This document shows, one piece after another, positions 35,752 through 52,563 of a DNA stretch of 64,000 nt. Positions within the stretch are counted from its first letter, which is position 1. Each line of letters begins with the position of its first letter. A program made the position numbers and the translations under genes. Location of the stretch: NCBI RefSeq assembly GCF_003634045.1, contig NZ_RBIM01000004.1, positions 310,001 to 374,000 of the forward strand, read 5' to 3'. The notes below the pieces were generated by a model. The model saw only the letters and a program-made list of their open reading frames with translations, was not told where the DNA came from and did not search any database. Source of the stretch: Maricaulis maris (GTDB lineage: Bacteria > Pseudomonadota > Alphaproteobacteria > Caulobacterales > Maricaulaceae).

Positions 35752-36800
35752 AGGCGAGTGCGCGCGATGCCGACGCTCGGGTCAGCAAGCCGGACCCGTC
35801 CATACGCGCCTATCTGATTTATGGTCCCGATCGCGGCCTGACCCATGAACGGGCCCAGACGCTGGTCGCGGCGGTCCTGGAAGATCCGAACGATCCCTTC
35901 GCGCTCACCCAACTGACCGAAGAAGACCTCAAATCCGATCCGGCCGGTCTTGCCGATGCGATGGCAGCGATGTCGCTGACCGGTAGCAAACGACTCGTCC
36001 GTGTCCGCCTGAACGGTGAAACCGGAAGCGGGCCGATTGTAGAGCTGATCAAGGCCCTCGAAGACGGCTCTCTCGCAGCGGAAGCGGTGCTGCTGGTCGA
36101 ATCCGGAGATTTAACGCCGCGAGGGAAGCTTAGAAAAACCTTCGAACCGGCGAAAAGGGCAATATCTATAGCATGTTATGCTGACAACGCTCATTCACTC
36201 GAATCACTCTGTGAAGACATGCTCAAGGTTGAGGATCTGACACTCTCGCGGGATGCGCGTGATCTTTGGATGCCGCGGCTCGAGGGCGACCGGGCATTGG
36301 CGCGTGGTGAGATCGAGAAGCTGATTCTCTACAAGGGCCTCCGAACCCAACGCGCCGAGGGCGAGGATGATGTCACGCGCGAGGATATCGAGGCCATCGC
36401 GGCCGATCAGGGCGAAGCGCAACTCGACGCTGTCCTCGCGCCGGCACTGCTCGGGTTAATGGAGAAAGCCGATAGCGCCTATCACCGCTCGATCACGGCG
36501 GGTGGTTCGGCGGTGGGTATCCTACGGGCGCTGCAACGCCGACTTGATCAGCTCGGCGCCGTACATGCGGCCGGCGGCAATGATGGGGCGATGGCACGCA
36601 GCGGGGCGCCGCGCTTCGGGCCTCAGGCGGATGCGTTCAAACGACAATTGTCGCTGTGGCGCGGGCGTCGTCTCGATCACGCGCGACAATTGGCCTTCGA
36701 CGCCGAACGGGCGGTCAAACGCTCCGGCGCACCTGCTGAGGCGCTGGTTGGCGATCTCCTGATCCGACTCGCACGCGGTGCGGCACAAATGGGTCGTTAG
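35748..36800 (+). CDS. holA: DNA polymerase III subunit delta
   Basis: A 350-residue clamp-loader subunit that opens the beta clamp. Typical blocks: AYLIYGPDRGLTHERA, MAAMSLTGSKRLVRVR, LEDGSLAAEAVLLVESGDL, CYADNAHSLESL and the C-terminal QRRLDQL helical domain. It starts at a GTG overlapping the lptE stop (GTGA), implying translational coupling. Its TAG overlaps the convergent parB stop by 3 bases. Confidence 0.92.
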   Translation: MKASARDADARVSKPDPSIRAYLIYGPDRGLTHERAQTLVAAVLEDPNDPFALTQLTEEDLKSDPAGLADAMAAMSLTGSKRLVRVRLNGETGSGPIVELIKALEDGSLAAEAVLLVESGDLTPRGKLRKTFEPAKRAISIACYADNAHSLESLCEDMLKVEDLTLSRDARDLWMPRLEGDRALARGEIEKLILYKGLRTQRAEGEDDVTREDIEAIAADQGEAQLDAVLAPALLGLMEKADSAYHRSITAGGSAVGILRALQRRLDQLGAVHAAGGNDGAMARSGAPRFGPQADAFKRQLSLWRGRRLDHARQLAFDAERAVKRSGAPAEALVGDLLIRLARGAAQMGR

Positions 36801-37726
36801 TGCCCTCGCCCGGTCTCGGCACTCAGCCGCCGGCAAACATCATCCAGTTGCTCCAGCGTTGTGTACTGGACCCGCAACTCACCGCCCTTGGCGCTGTGCC
36901 GGATATCCACCGCAAGACCGAGCCGGGCCGTGATATCGACCTCGAGTGCCCGGGTGTCGGCGTCCTTCCGGCCGCCGGCCGTCGTCGACGACGACTTGGT
37001 TTCCGGTGCAGCCGGATTATTGGCGGCACGAGCCAGCTTTTCGGCATCGCGGACTGACAGACCCTTGGCAACAATCTCTTCTGCGAGCGCTTCCGGATCG
37101 GGTGCATTGGCAATCGCACGCGCATGACCCGCAGAAATTTCCCCGCCAGCCAACAGCTTGAGCACCATGTCAGGGAGTGATAGGAGGCGCATCATGTTGG
37201 CGACATGACTGCGGCTCTTCGAGACGGCGTGCGCCACATCTTCCTGGGTATGGCCGAAACGATCGATCAGTTGGCGATAGGCTTGAGCCTCTTCAACCGG
37301 GTTGAGATCCGCACGCTGAACATTTTCGACAATGCCGATTTCGAGCGTCTCGCGATCGGTCAGTTCACGGACCAGGGCCGGCACATCGTGCAATCGCGCC
37401 CGCTGGGCCGCACGCCAGCGGCGTTCGCCAGCGACGATCTGGAAACGCTCACCACCATCGACCGGACGCACCAGGATCGGCTGGACAATGCCCTTGTCGG
37501 CGATCGACTCGGCCAGTGCATTCAGCTCCGGCTCAGTGATTGTCTTGCGCGGCTGATCCGGGTTGGGCGCAATCAGCTCGATCGGGATCATCCGGACGCC
37601 GTCGCGGGACGACGTCGATGGCCGTTCATTGGTCGTCTCCGGGACACTATAGCCTTCAGTGTCGGTCTCACCGAGCAGGGCCGACAGGCCGCGGCCGAGA
37701 CGTTTGTTCTTTTCGCTGGCGCTCAT
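36797..37726 (-). CDS. parB: Chromosome-partitioning protein ParB
   Basis: A 309-residue parS-binding CTPase/DNA-clamp protein. It begins SEKNKRLGRGLSALLG and has IELIAPNPDQPRKTI, the CTP-binding ERRWRAAQRA box, the helix-turn-helix HTQEDVAHAVSKSRSHVANMMRLL, and a C-terminal dimerisation domain. The GERRWRAAQRA motif shows it can load and slide. It is encoded just after parA (4-bp overlap), with three parS-type sites 1.4-3.4 kb upstream in the same cluster. Confidence 0.97.
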   Translation of the reverse strand: MSASEKNKRLGRGLSALLGETDTEGYSVPETTNERPSTSSRDGVRMIPIELIAPNPDQPRKTITEPELNALAESIADKGIVQPILVRPVDGGERFQIVAGERRWRAAQRARLHDVPALVRELTDRETLEIGIVENVQRADLNPVEEAQAYRQLIDRFGHTQEDVAHAVSKSRSHVANMMRLLSLPDMVLKLLAGGEISAGHARAIANAPDPEALAEEIVAKGLSVRDAEKLARAANNPAAPETKSSSTTAGGRKDADTRALEVDITARLGLAVDIRHSAKGGELRVQYTTLEQLDDVCRRLSAETGRGH

Positions 37727-38568
37727 GCCACTTCACCCTGTTCTTCGCGACGACGCTTTCGTTCTTGCTGAACGATTTCCTTGGCCAGGCTGATATAGGC
37801 CTGCGATCCCGAGCACTGGATATCATAGAGCAGGACGGGCTTCCCGACCGACGGCGCCTCGGAAACCCGCACATTGCGCGGGATCACCGTCTTGTAGACC
37901 TTGTCACCGAAATGCTCGCGGACATCGGCCGCCACTTCCGCCGAGAGATTGTTGCGGCTGTCATACATGGTCAGGACGACGCCCTGGATATCCAGCCGCG
38001 AATTGAGATGACCGCGAACCCGCTCAATGGTCTTGAGCAGCTGAGACAGCCCCTCCAATGCAAAAAACTCGCACTGCAACGGCACCAGGATCGCGTCCGC
38101 CGCGGTCAGAGAGTTCACGGTCAGAACATTCAGCGAGGGCGGACAATCGATCAGGATATAATCGAGACCAGCAGCATCAGGGCCAAGCATTTGCATGCTT
38201 TGATCAATCGCGCGCTTGAGACGATAGGACCGGCGCTGATCATCGGCCAGTTCAAGCTCGGCTCCTGACAAAAGCTCGTCGGACGGCACGATACTGAGGC
38301 CGGGGACCACGGTGGGAACCAAGGCTGACTTCAGGGAATCGCCACCAACGAGGACATCATAAGATGTCAGACTGCGCTTGGCCGGCGGCACACCAAGGCC
38401 GGTTGACGCATTGCCCTGGGGGTCGAGATCAATGATCGCGACCTTTTGCTTTATGGCCGCCAGCGCGGTGCCCAGATTGATGGCGGTCGTGGTTTTGCCC
38501 ACCCCGCCCTTCTGGTTCGCGACAGCAATAACACGGGGCGCCTTGGCGCGCTGGACGTCATTTGGCAC
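37723..38568 (-). CDS. parA: Chromosome-partitioning ATPase ParA
   Basis: A 281-residue ATPase with the deviant Walker A KGGVGKTT at residues 20-27 and the DLDPQGNAS box, followed by [14 protein letters not shown]-bound ParA on the nucleoid draws ParB-parS complexes poleward. I prefer the GTG at 38568 because GAGG stands 6 bases upstream; an ATG at 38580 gives 4 more residues. Either start overlaps the rsmG 3' end (by 11 or 23 bases), so rsmG-parA-parB form one transcript. Confidence 0.95.
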
Positions 38569-39181
38569 GTTCCACCTCATGAATGCGCAGGATCACCCCG
38601 TCGCTGGTCCGACTGGGTATGACTTCGTGATCGAATGTCCAGTGTTTACCGGCTTCGGTCAATTCATCGCGATAGTTTTGTCCCTTGAAGAAAAGGCCCT
38701 GGGCCCTGTTTTTCAGCAAGGGCGCGACATAGCCCAATAATTTATTCAACGGCGCGAAGGCCCGGGCCGTCACCAGGTCGAACCCCTCGGCCGGATCCAG
38801 CGTTTCCACGCGGACCGAGCGGGCTTCGGCATCAAGGGCGAGCGCATCAATCGTCTTGCGCAGGAAGGCGACCTTCTTGCCGATGGAGTCGACCATCGTG
38901 ACGCGCGCAGCCTGGCCACGATCGCGAAAGCCAAGCGCCAGGGCAATGCCGGGAAAACCGGCTCCCGCACCCAGATCAGCGACCCGTTTCACATCCGGCG
39001 AGATGTGATCCAGAAGCTGGAAACTGTCCATCGCATGGCGCTGCCAGAACTGGTCAAGCGTCGAACGGCCGACAAGATTGGTATGCGCATTCGTCTCCGT
39101 GAGGAGGCGGCGCCAGAGCTCAAACCCGTCCAGTGTTTCACGTGAAACACCGGTCTCGCGTCCGAACGCGACCCGATCCAT
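38558..39181 (-). CDS. rsmG: 16S rRNA m7G527 methyltransferase
   Basis: A 207-residue SAM-dependent methyltransferase modifying G527 of 16S rRNA. Motifs: [22 protein letters not shown], the SAM site [17 protein letters not shown], and [14 protein letters not shown] canonical parS site lies inside its 5' coding end, so the codons here serve a second purpose. The start abuts the mnmG stop with no gap. Confidence 0.95.
39134..39149. promoter_or_regulatory. parS site, perfect match (within rsmG)
   Basis: TGTTTCACGTGAAACA, the full 16-bp palindromic ParB-binding consensus, extended to an 18-bp palindrome by flanking G and C (39133-39150). It lies in the first 50 bases of rsmG coding sequence, about 12.3 kb from the candidate oriC. 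Confidence 0.95.
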
Positions 39182-41041
39182 CTAGCTGGCCTCCTGCGCA
39201 CGCCGCTTCACATGGGCCAGCACGGCGGTCAAAGCGCCCGGCGTGACCCCTTCAATCCGCGCCGCCTGACCCAGCGTGTCCGGTCGGGCGAGCTCGAGCT
39301 TTTCACGCGCCTCGTTCGACAAACCGCCGATCCGGCCATAATCCAGATCACGTGGAATGCGCACGGACTCATCACGACGGAAGGCCAGAATGTCAGCCTG
39401 CTGACGCTCGATATAGCCGGCATAAAGCGCATCAATTTCGATCTGCTCGGCGACACCCGCGCTGATCTCCAAGAGCTCCGGCCAGATCCCGCTAAGCTTG
39501 CTCCAATCGACGTCCGGATAGGCCAGCAATTCCGGCACGCTTCGCCGTTTGCCATCAGCGTTGACCGACAGGCCGTGGGCTTTCGCCTCGTTCGGCGTCA
39601 GGGACAGTGACGACGTCCGACCACGCGCGACCGACAACTCGTCCATTTTCGCTGTGTACCGTGTTTCACGTGAAACCCCGGCCAGGCCCAGCTCTACCGC
39701 TTTCGGGGTCAGGCGCTGGTCGGCATTGTCCGCCCGCAAGGTCAACCGGTATTCGGCACGCGATGTAAACATGCGATAGGGTTCGCTGACGCCGCGCGTG
39801 ATCAGATCATCGATCATCACACCGATATAGGCATCGGACCGGCTGAGCACGAACGGCTCGCGCCCCGTCGCGGAAAGCGCCGCGTTCGCACCAGCCATCA
39901 CGCCTTGCGCGGCCGCTTCCTCGTAGCCGGTCGTGCCGTTGATCTGGCCGGCCAGCCAGAGCCCCGGTCGTTTGCGCATCTGAAGCGTGGCATCGAGCTC
40001 ACGCGGATCGACATAATCATACTCGATCGCATACCCGTAGCGTTTAACCTCGACCTGCTCGAGCCCCGGAATGGTCTCAAGAAAGCGCTGCTGTACGTCG
40101 TCTGGAAGCGAGGTGGAGATGCCGTTGGGGTAGACCGTGTCATCATCCAGACCTTCCGGCTCCAGGAAAACCTGGTGCTGGGATCGATCCGCAAACCGCA
40201 CCACCTTGTCCTCGATAGACGGGCAATAACGGGGCCCCCGACCAGCGATGGCGCCGGAATAAACAGCCGACTGGCCAAGATTGTCTGCGATGATTTTGTG
40301 CGTTGCCTCGGTCGTCCGGGTAATCGCGCAACTGATCTGCGGAACACGGATCTCGTCCGTCATGAAAGAGAAGGGCACCGGCGCATCATCGGCCGCCTGC
40401 TGCTCGAGCGCGTCCCAATCGATCGACGATTTACGAAGCCGCGCCGGCGTCCCGGTCTTCAGCCGTCCCATGCGAAGGTCGAGACCGTAGAGCGTGTCAG
40501 ACAATCCGATCGACGGGGCCTCATCGACACGCCCGGCGGGAATGCGTTGCGCGCCCTTATGGATCAGACCACGCAGGAATGTTCCGGTCGTGAGGACCAC
40601 AGCTCGGGCGTGATACTCGCGGCCGTCCGCATCCACAGCACCGACACAGGTCTCGCCGTCAAACAACAGGTCCTCGACCGCAGCGGCATGAATATCGAGA
40701 TTGGCAGTGCCATTGAGTTCAGCCTGCATCGCCGCGCGATAAAGCGCCCGATCAGACTGGGTCCTCGGCCCGCGTACCGCCGGTCCCTTGGACCGGTTGA
40801 GTAAACGAAACTGGATGCCCGACGCATCGGCGACCCGACCCATGACACCGTCGAGCGCGTCAATTTCCCGAACCAGATGTCCCTTTCCCAATCCGCCAAT
40901 GGCCGGATTGCAGGACATCTCACCAATCGTTTCGCTCTTGTGGGTCAGCAACAGGGTGCGAGCGCCCAGCCGCGCGGACGCCGCGGCCGCATCGCAGCCG
41001 GCGTGCCCGCCACCAATGATCAAGACATCCCAAATCTGCAT
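39182..41041 (-). CDS. mnmG: tRNA uridine 5-carboxymethylaminomethyl modification enzyme, FAD subunit
   Basis: A 619-residue protein that with MnmE makes the cmnm5 modification at wobble U34. It shows the FAD motif [14 protein letters not shown] near the start, [39 protein letters not shown]-type blocks and GYEEAAAQG near the second dinucleotide site. Length is standard. A near-perfect parS lies inside its coding region. It forms a run with mnmE upstream and rsmG-parA-parB downstream. Confidence 0.97.
39662..39677. promoter_or_regulatory. parS-type site, one mismatch (within mnmG)
   Basis: TGTTTCACGTGAAACC matches the 16-bp parS consensus at 15 positions; only the last A is C. It lies in the distal part of mnmG, 528 bases from the rsmG site. 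Confidence 0.85.
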
Positions 41042-41126: not shown

Positions 41127-41142
41127 TGTTTCACGTGAAACA
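41127..41142. promoter_or_regulatory. parS site, perfect match (between mnmE and mnmG)
   Basis: TGTTTCACGTGAAACA in the 122-bp mnmE-mnmG gap, identical to the rsmG site. It is the nearest of the three to the candidate oriC, about 10.1 kb away. Confidence 0.95.
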
Positions 41143-50240: not shown

Positions 50241-51278
50241 TCAGCCACGGGACCGGATCCGCGCCAATAACTGCTCGACATGGCTTACCGGCACATCCGG
50301 AGTAATGCCATGTCCCAGATTGAAGATATGGGGCCGCCCGGCCCAACTATCCAGCAACCGGTCAATCTCACTGTCGAGCGCTCGCCCTCCAGCTCTCAGC
50401 GCGGCCGGGTCCAGATGCCCCTGCACCGCCATGCCGGCCGGCAGAACCGACTGTATCCAGGCCGGGTCAACCGAAGTGTCAACAGCGATCGCCGTTACAC
50501 CGGTCTCCCGGGCATATCGCGGATACAGCGTACCGGCGCCGCGCGGAAAACCGATGATCGGTACATCAACACCAGCAGCGCGCACCGCTTCGATGATCCG
50601 CTTGGTCGGGCGGATGATCACCCGTTCGAACAGGGGCTGGGGCAAACCCTCCGCCCAGCTATCGAACAGTTTGAGGACTTCGGCACCACACCGGGCCTGC
50701 ATCACCAGATATTCCGCCGTGACATCGGCGATCCGGTCCATCATCGCATCGAATGCTTCGGGATGTTCCCATGCCGCGACCCGGGCCCGGAACCGGTCCT
50801 TCGATCCACCACCCTCGATCATGTAGGTCGCCACCGTCCAAGGCGAACCGGCAAAACCGATCATTGTTGTGGTCTCCGGCAATTGCGGCACCACGCGCTT
50901 GAGCGTTTCACCCACCGGCGCCAGCACGGCCTCGGTCTGATCGGTTCGCAATTGCTCGAACAGCCTGGGGTCGAAGGGTTCAAGCTGCGGACCTTCACCG
51001 GTCACGAACCAGACCTTGCGACCCAGCGCGATCGGCACCAGCAGGATATCGGCAAACAGGATGGACGCATCAAAGCCAAAACGCCGGATTGGCTGCAATG
51101 TCACTTCGGCGGCCAGATCGGGAGAAAAACAGAAATCGATGAAGTTCTTCGCTCGGGAACGAACCTCGCGATACTCGGCGAGATAACGGCCAGCCTGTCG
51201 CATCAGCCAGACAGGCGGTGGTGCGACGGTTTCACCGGCAAGCACCTGAAGCATGGGTTTTTTGATCGTGTCATTCAT
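50241..51278 (-). CDS. hemE: Uroporphyrinogen decarboxylase
   Basis: A 345-residue enzyme making coproporphyrinogen III. Motifs: PPVWLMRQAGRYLAEYR, ILFADILLVPIALG, GFAGSPWTVATYMIEGGGSKD and NLGHGI near the C-terminus. It is the gene beside the Caulobacter origin, and here its start faces the 445-bp non-coding gap. It is followed at 16 bases by hemH. Confidence 0.97.
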   Translation of the reverse strand: MNDTIKKPMLQVLAGETVAPPPVWLMRQAGRYLAEYREVRSRAKNFIDFCFSPDLAAEVTLQPIRRFGFDASILFADILLVPIALGRKVWFVTGEGPQLEPFDPRLFEQLRTDQTEAVLAPVGETLKRVVPQLPETTTMIGFAGSPWTVATYMIEGGGSKDRFRARVAAWEHPEAFDAMMDRIADVTAEYLVMQARCGAEVLKLFDSWAEGLPQPLFERVIIRPTKRIIEAVRAAGVDVPIIGFPRGAGTLYPRYARETGVTAIAVDTSVDPAWIQSVLPAGMAVQGHLDPAALRAGGRALDSEIDRLLDSWAGRPHIFNLGHGITPDVPVSHVEQLLARIRSRG

Positions 51279-51723
51279 CCGCCCTGCTTAGGCATGTCTT
51301 ATCGACGGATCAATCTGTCCCCTTCATCTCTCTAATAATATTAAAAGGATTGTTGAGGTTTGTGGGGGCGTGAATGACGTGGATGATCCGGGTTTTGCCC
51401 GCTGCCCGGGTTAGTATGACCTCAAAATTTTCTTCCACATTGGCTAGCCAAGCGAGAGCGGCAAAAAGAAAATCAGTCTTTTGTCTCAGCCAGTTATCGC
51501 GCATGATTTATGTGGAATGACAGTGGAAAACAGGTTCTTTGGCAAGCATGGCCTGAAAGTTCATCCACAGGCATTTCCACATAGCTGCGGCATGTGGACA
51601 GTGTTGTGGGTTGTTCGTGGTAAGACCGGGTACTACTCACATGTCTCAGGAGCCGATTGCTGAGTTGGGGAAAACAGCCCAACTTATTAACAATTGGTAA
51701 ACGCTAGCCCGGTACCCGGCCTC
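51279..51723. other. Candidate chromosomal replication origin (oriC)
   Basis: A 445-bp non-coding gap between hemE and a DUF299 regulator, the position of Cori in Caulobacter. An AT-rich patch lies at 51331-51350. TCCACA cores occur at 51431-51439, 51561-51569 and 51573-51581 on the plus strand, and 51511-51519 and 51593-51601 on the minus strand, plus a TTTTCCACT-type near-match at 51522-51530. A CtrA-type motif (51687-51701) lies before the next gene. The flanking hemE-hemH and DUF299-maf blocks point away. Boxes deviate from the perfect TTATCCACA, and a 64-residue minus-strand frame inside was rejected. Confidence 0.75.
51687..51701 (+). promoter_or_regulatory. CtrA-type motif in the candidate oriC (7 of 8 consensus bases)
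   Basis: TTAA at 51687-51690, seven bases, then TAAA at 51698-51701, 23 bases before the DUF299 gene start. In Caulobacter CtrA sites inside the origin block initiation in swarmer cells. One base differs from TTAA-N7-TTAA. Confidence 0.5.
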
Positions 51724-52563
51724 ATGCCTCCCACGAATTCTCCTTTTGATACCTGCTTTCACATCCACATGGTCTCGGACTCGACCGGTGAGACCCTGAT
51801 GGAGGTCATGCGGGCCTCGGTTGCCCAGTTTGAAGGAACCAGTCCGCTCGAACATCTCTATGCGCTGGTGCGCTCATCGAAACAGCTTGATCGAGTGCTG
51901 GATGAAGTCGCCGCCTATCCGGGCGTGGTGATGTACACGATCGTCAATGCCGATCTGCGCCGAGAACTGGAAACCCGCTGTGTTGAACTGGGTGTGCCGG
52001 CGATCGCCATTCTTGATCCGATGCTGGCAACACTGAGCGCTTATCTCGGTCGGCCGGTCGCCAGTCGTGCCGGTGCCCAACGATCACTGGATGCTGATTA
52101 CTATCGCCGGATCGACGCGCTGAATTACGCCATGGCGCATGATGATGGCCAGGGGGATGATTTTGAAGGCGCCGATATCGTGTTGCTCGGCGTCAGCCGG
52201 ACCTCGAAAACCCCGACTAGTGTCTATTTGGCCCACCGCGGGTTTCGGGCGGCCAATATCCCGCTGGTCAAGGATGTGCCCTTGCCGCCGGCGATCTTCA
52301 ATCTTCGCAATCCGCTGGTTGTCGGCTTGACGGCGTCGCCGGAGCGGATCGTGCAGATCCGGCGAAACCGCCTGCTCAGCCTCAATGAGGACCGCGACAC
52401 GAATTACATCGATGATTTTGCGGTGCGGGAGGAAATCCTGTTCGCCAAGCGTCTTTACGCTAAACACAAATGGCCGACCATTGATGTCACCCGCCGTTCG
52501 ATCGAGGAAACAGCGGCAAAAATCATCAACCTTCTCATGGAAAAACGGAATCTCACCGTATGA
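51724..52563 (+). CDS. Pyruvate, phosphate dikinase regulatory protein-like (DUF299/PPSR)
   Basis: A 279-residue bifunctional kinase/phosphorylase-type protein. It has FHIHMVSDSTGET at the start, the nucleotide loop GVSRTSKTPTSVYLA near residues 156-170, and LVGLTASPERIVQIRRNRL. The family regulates PEP synthase or pyruvate phosphate dikinase by ADP-dependent phosphorylation. The ATG at 51724 is chosen; a TTG at 51694 would start inside the CtrA motif. It borders the candidate origin, as its Caulobacter counterpart does, and overlaps maf by 4 bases. Confidence 0.93.
   Translation: MPPTNSPFDTCFHIHMVSDSTGETLMEVMRASVAQFEGTSPLEHLYALVRSSKQLDRVLDEVAAYPGVVMYTIVNADLRRELETRCVELGVPAIAILDPMLATLSAYLGRPVASRAGAQRSLDADYYRRIDALNYAMAHDDGQGDDFEGADIVLLGVSRTSKTPTSVYLAHRGFRAANIPLVKDVPLPPAIFNLRNPLVVGLTASPERIVQIRRNRLLSLNEDRDTNYIDDFAVREEILFAKRLYAKHKWPTIDVTRRSIEETAAKIINLLMEKRNLTV

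Follow-up and report, generated by a model that had tools for sequence, protein, structure and literature searches.

In this genome of Maricaulis, a marine relative of Caulobacter, the 445-bp gap that separates hemE from the PPSR gene is almost certainly, to judge from sequence comparison, the single chromosomal replication origin and the positional homologue of the Caulobacter origin Cori. It belongs to the known hemE/COG1806 kind of Caulobacter and Maricaulis origins, lying in the same place and holding parts similar to those of the studied relatives. The identification draws on a switch in strand composition, a cluster of TCCACA sequences, nearby parS sites, synteny and a composite site for CtrA and DnaA. 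An earlier note, made from the letters alone, had proposed the gap as a candidate origin, and that reading gains support from the skew switch on the contig, the nearby parS sites and the conservation of its elements throughout Maricaulis.

The draft genome measures 3.57 Mb in 12 contigs (completeness estimate 100%). The window is the whole stretch analysed, 64,000 nucleotides at C4:310001-374000, and coordinates without a contig prefix refer to it. Genome-wide scans covered about 2.5 Mb (2.54 Mb, ~70% of the genome) in 10 of the 12 contigs. The gap lies at C4:361279-361723 and has a GC content of 0.49, against 0.62 for the window. Genes diverge from it: rho, hemJ, hemH and hemE are on the minus strand on one side, and PPSR (DUF299), maf, aroE, coaE and dnaQ on the plus strand on the other. 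Both neighbours named in the earlier note are confirmed by family models, with the following boundaries.

50241 to 51278, minus strand: hemE, left boundary gene (TIGR01464, 379 bits; cut-off 303)
51279 to 51723, no strand: the hemE-PPSR gap, almost certainly the chromosomal replication origin (skew switch, TCCACA cluster, synteny, conserved blocks)
51724 to 52563, plus strand: PPSR/DUF299/COG1806 gene, right boundary, with its ATG at 51724 (NF003742, 322 bits; cut-off 225)

All 33 relatives compared, which range from Maricaulis to Caulobacteraceae, retain the flanking pair. Among named genomes, those with the closest PPSR proteins (96-99% identity) belong to Maricaulis, which assigns the present genome to that genus.

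On C4 (458 kb) cumulative GC skew declines over 360 kb and then climbs, and the gap sits at this switch of leading and lagging polarity. The raw minimum is at 363521, inside aroE and ~2 kb past the gap on its right; the least-squares change point of the skew is at 361039 and the minimum of keto excess at 361212. This is the sole large negative-to-positive switch in the ~2.5 Mb scanned. The opposite, terminus-type switch is found on C2 near 150 kb, and the skew of the other contigs scanned is nearly uniform in sign within each contig. The earlier note had proposed the skew minimum as a check, naming the neighbourhood of dnaA as one example of a refuting position; a switch is seen at the gap but not at dnaA. 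The dnaA gene is on C9, whose skew is uniformly positive, and an origin beside dnaA is therefore ruled out. A second species, M. parjimensis, likewise has a sign change in skew at the hemE-PPSR gap, which lies near 570 kb on the contig concerned.

Another origin-type switch, on C1 near 30 kb, was set aside because the local negative skew at that contig end is due to a minus-strand prophage in the first 20 kb. Frames resembling a large terminase, portal, capsid and tape-measure protein, recognised by eye from translations, are found on the minus strand there (C1:1-20000, L067).

Within the gap we distinguish these elements, mismatches being counted against the DnaA-box consensus TTATCCACA.

51322 to 51361, no strand: AT-rich patch and candidate unwinding element; by nearest-neighbour energy, no other 40-bp stretch in the 64-kb window is less stable
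51378 to 51386, minus strand: DnaA-like box TCATCCACG, adjoining the AT-rich patch (TTATCCACG or TTTTCCACG in sister genera)
51431 to 51439, plus strand: DnaA-like box TCTTCCACA, 2 mismatches
51511 to 51516, minus strand: TCCACA core, retained as TGTGGA in the closest relatives
51561 to 51569, plus strand: best DnaA box TCATCCACA, 1 mismatch from TTATCCACA and likewise 1 from the Caulobacter G-box TGATCCACA
51573 to 51581, plus strand: DnaA-like box ATTTCCACA, 2 mismatches
51593 to 51601, minus strand: DnaA-like box CTGTCCACA, its core TGTGG invariant in 15 of 15 aligned Maricaulis loci
51625 to 51641, plus strand: conserved 17-bp block ACCSGGTANTACYCACA, with ACTCACA as its last letters and a degenerate DnaA-like box at its end
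51684 to 51702, plus strand: composite element TTATTAACANNNNNTAAAC, in which the DnaA-like TTATTAACA (51684-51692) overlaps the CtrA-like TTAA-N7-TAAAC (51687-51702)

The five TCCACA cores that had been noted, in both orientations, are present (51434 and 51564 and 51576 on the plus strand, 51511 and 51593 on the minus strand), although they span 165 bp and not the 171 bp given earlier. A sixth, at 51764, is within the PPSR gene. Their rarity by chance had been estimated at 0.2 per 445 bp; TCCACA is indeed rarer by chance than found here, and the genomic count (704 per 2.54 Mb, both strands) lowers the expectation to 0.12. Elsewhere in the 2.5 Mb scanned there are at most three copies per 200 bp, making the gap the densest cluster. 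Nine 9-mers in the gap are within two mismatches of TTATCCACA, where shuffles give 1.2, but only one is within one mismatch. Neither TTATCCACA nor TTATNCACA occurs exactly in the gap by motif scan, and the description of its boxes as weaker than canonical is therefore correct. The AT-rich patch described in the same note is there too, its low predicted stability at 51322-51361 making it a candidate unwinding region.

The CtrA-type motif of the earlier note is likewise found. It is the one CtrA-like site of the gap, TTAACAATTGGTAAA, with the form TTAA-N7-TAAA at 51687-51701 and one mismatch. The composite element that contains it has one copy in this genome and one copy in each of 18 of 19 Maricaulis genomes, the remaining one (G024) having no match. 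Shaheen, Ouimet and Marczynski (2009, Microbiology 155:1215) reportedly described the origin of Maricaulis MCS10 as having a single, genome-unique CtrA site that overlaps a critical DnaA box, with CtrA and DnaA said to compete there for one place. The composite at 51684-51702 has that form, in single copy; the present genome (3.57 Mb, 12 contigs) is of a different species or strain from MCS10. A CtrA ortholog is encoded, at 84% identity to a C. crescentus query sequence.

In an alignment of 15 Maricaulis hemE-PPSR gaps, conserved blocks alternate with stretches that change freely. The left part retains a block on the hemE side together with the AT-rich patch, and the GTGGA box at 51378-51386; the right part retains the cluster of boxes from 51561 to 51601, the 17-bp block at 51625-51641 and the composite element. 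The 17-bp block occurs once in each of 18 of 19 Maricaulis genomes, with no match in the other (G018). It is exactly 59 bp from the composite element, by coordinate subtraction, in 16 of the 16 genomes that have both on the same strand; G012, with the block on the other strand, G018 and G024 were left out. In a further locus, L032, a 1-bp insertion is present. The DNA in between diverges across Maricaulis, and constant spacing over unconserved sequence suggests a protein-DNA geometry. It is rather unlikely, but conceivable, that the block is an undescribed origin element for a regulator other than DnaA, or that it reflects a rigid spacing rule for DnaA and CtrA specific to Maricaulis.

CtrA sites are more numerous and of better quality in several gaps from sister genera (Oceanicaulis, Glycocaulis and others), so that their number varies between genera. 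Sister-genus loci (L047, L049, L056 and similar) have runs of CtrA half-sites in mid-gap (GATTAAC...TTAACC...TAAAC...GTTAAC), which Maricaulis lacks.

A partition locus is close to the gap, and its components are as follows.

36797 to 37726, minus strand: parB (PF02195, PF17762, PF23552)
37723 to 38580, minus strand: parA (PF13614, 187 bits)
39135 to 39148, no strand: parS site GTTTCACGTGAAAC
39663 to 39676, no strand: parS site GTTTCACGTGAAAC, within mnmG/gidA
41128 to 41141, no strand: parS site GTTTCACGTGAAAC, between mnmG and mnmE

These three perfect parS sites (C4:349135-351141) are beside parAB and 10-12 kb from the gap, and the genome has no others. Each of seven relatives searched has three or four parS sites, near the hemE-PPSR gap wherever both positions could be compared.

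The Caulobacter origin is located between hemE and COG1806 (PMC1914354). There DnaA loads onto boxes that are moderate or very weak, and phosphorylated CtrA excludes DnaA (PMC4468827). The Maricaulis gap resembles Cori of Caulobacter crescentus in its hemE and COG1806 (DUF299) flanks, its AT-rich patch and its weak DnaA sites, and in having parS close by (within 8 kb of the origin there, PMC4468827, versus 10-12 kb here). It differs in its CtrA sites, of which Cori has five (TTAA-N7-TTAA) and this gap one, with one mismatch, and in this respect it departs from Cori in the strict sense. Also unlike Cori, it has no exact G-box TGATCCACA and no GANTC by motif scan. For IHF, the gap has one WATCAN5WTR match, which is not kept among relatives. 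According to PMC4468827, which cites Shaheen et al., CtrA is used by some marine Caulobacter origins, a trait that probably evolved independently. The origin of Rickettsia prowazekii shares the hemE and COG1806 boundary genes but is shorter (384 bp), AT-richer and different in site content (PMC1914354). Other searches of the gap gave no match to Rfam (for example an RNA like Caulobacter CcnA) up to E = 1, and no sigma-70 promoter by consensus scan; its right-hand 134 nt fold no better than shuffles (z = -1.4).

Two divergent genes need promoters in the gap, and DnaA and CtrA are transcription regulators too in Caulobacter (PMC4468827, PMC8959179). The gap could accordingly be only the divergent hemE/PPSR promoter region, with DnaA and CtrA as regulators and the origin elsewhere, for example beside dnaA. 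We regard this as very improbable, since the strand composition switches ~2 kb or less from the gap and not at dnaA, parS sites adjoin, and the TCCACA cluster is unique. Skew alone resolves position to ~2 kb, and its raw minimum in aroE would allow the origin to lie in a different intergenic gap, at most a few kb away. There is very little chance of this either: the other two skew measures (361039 and 361212) do not share that displacement, other nearby stretches have no clustered DnaA-like sites, and the hemE-PPSR gap is conserved non-coding DNA in which element spacing is fixed across the genus.

The clustering of weak DnaA-like sites would also fit a datA-like site that titrates DnaA near the origin without being the origin. 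We find this scarcely credible, with the window's least stable DNA adjoining the cluster, position and boundary genes matching those of Cori, and the skew switching at the gap itself. Taking the gap as the chromosomal origin, replication initiation in a Maricaulis genome is narrowed down to a 445-bp interval, independently of dnaA. The aligned origins of the genus, each genome having one composite CtrA/DnaA site, form a set in which that site and the 59-bp spacing are directly testable. Existing knowledge of alphaproteobacterial origins is left unchanged.

Most likely, going by the arrangement of its predicted sites, the origin works through cooperative loading of DnaA on weak sites, one of which CtrA blocks. 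DnaA would load cooperatively on the weak boxes, among which TCATCCACA at 51561 ranks first, whereupon the AT-rich patch beside hemE (51322-51361) would melt and two forks would depart. Phosphorylated CtrA on 51687-51701 would exclude DnaA from the overlapping TTATTAACA, the composite site letting the two proteins compete for one place, and this exclusion would silence the origin in swarmer cells. The new origins would then be segregated by ParB bound at the parS sites 10-12 kb away.

Two observations concern DnaA-like sequences outside the gap. Only one other place in the sampled sequence, C5:9437 (L070), has three TCCACA in 200 bp; it resembles membrane-protein coding DNA, and the triplet there is probably due to chance. 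The genome has just eight perfect copies of TTATCCACA, all of them outside the origin, and one of these (C1:498105-498113) is ~340 bp upstream of the ctrA frame (C1:497093-497764, minus strand).
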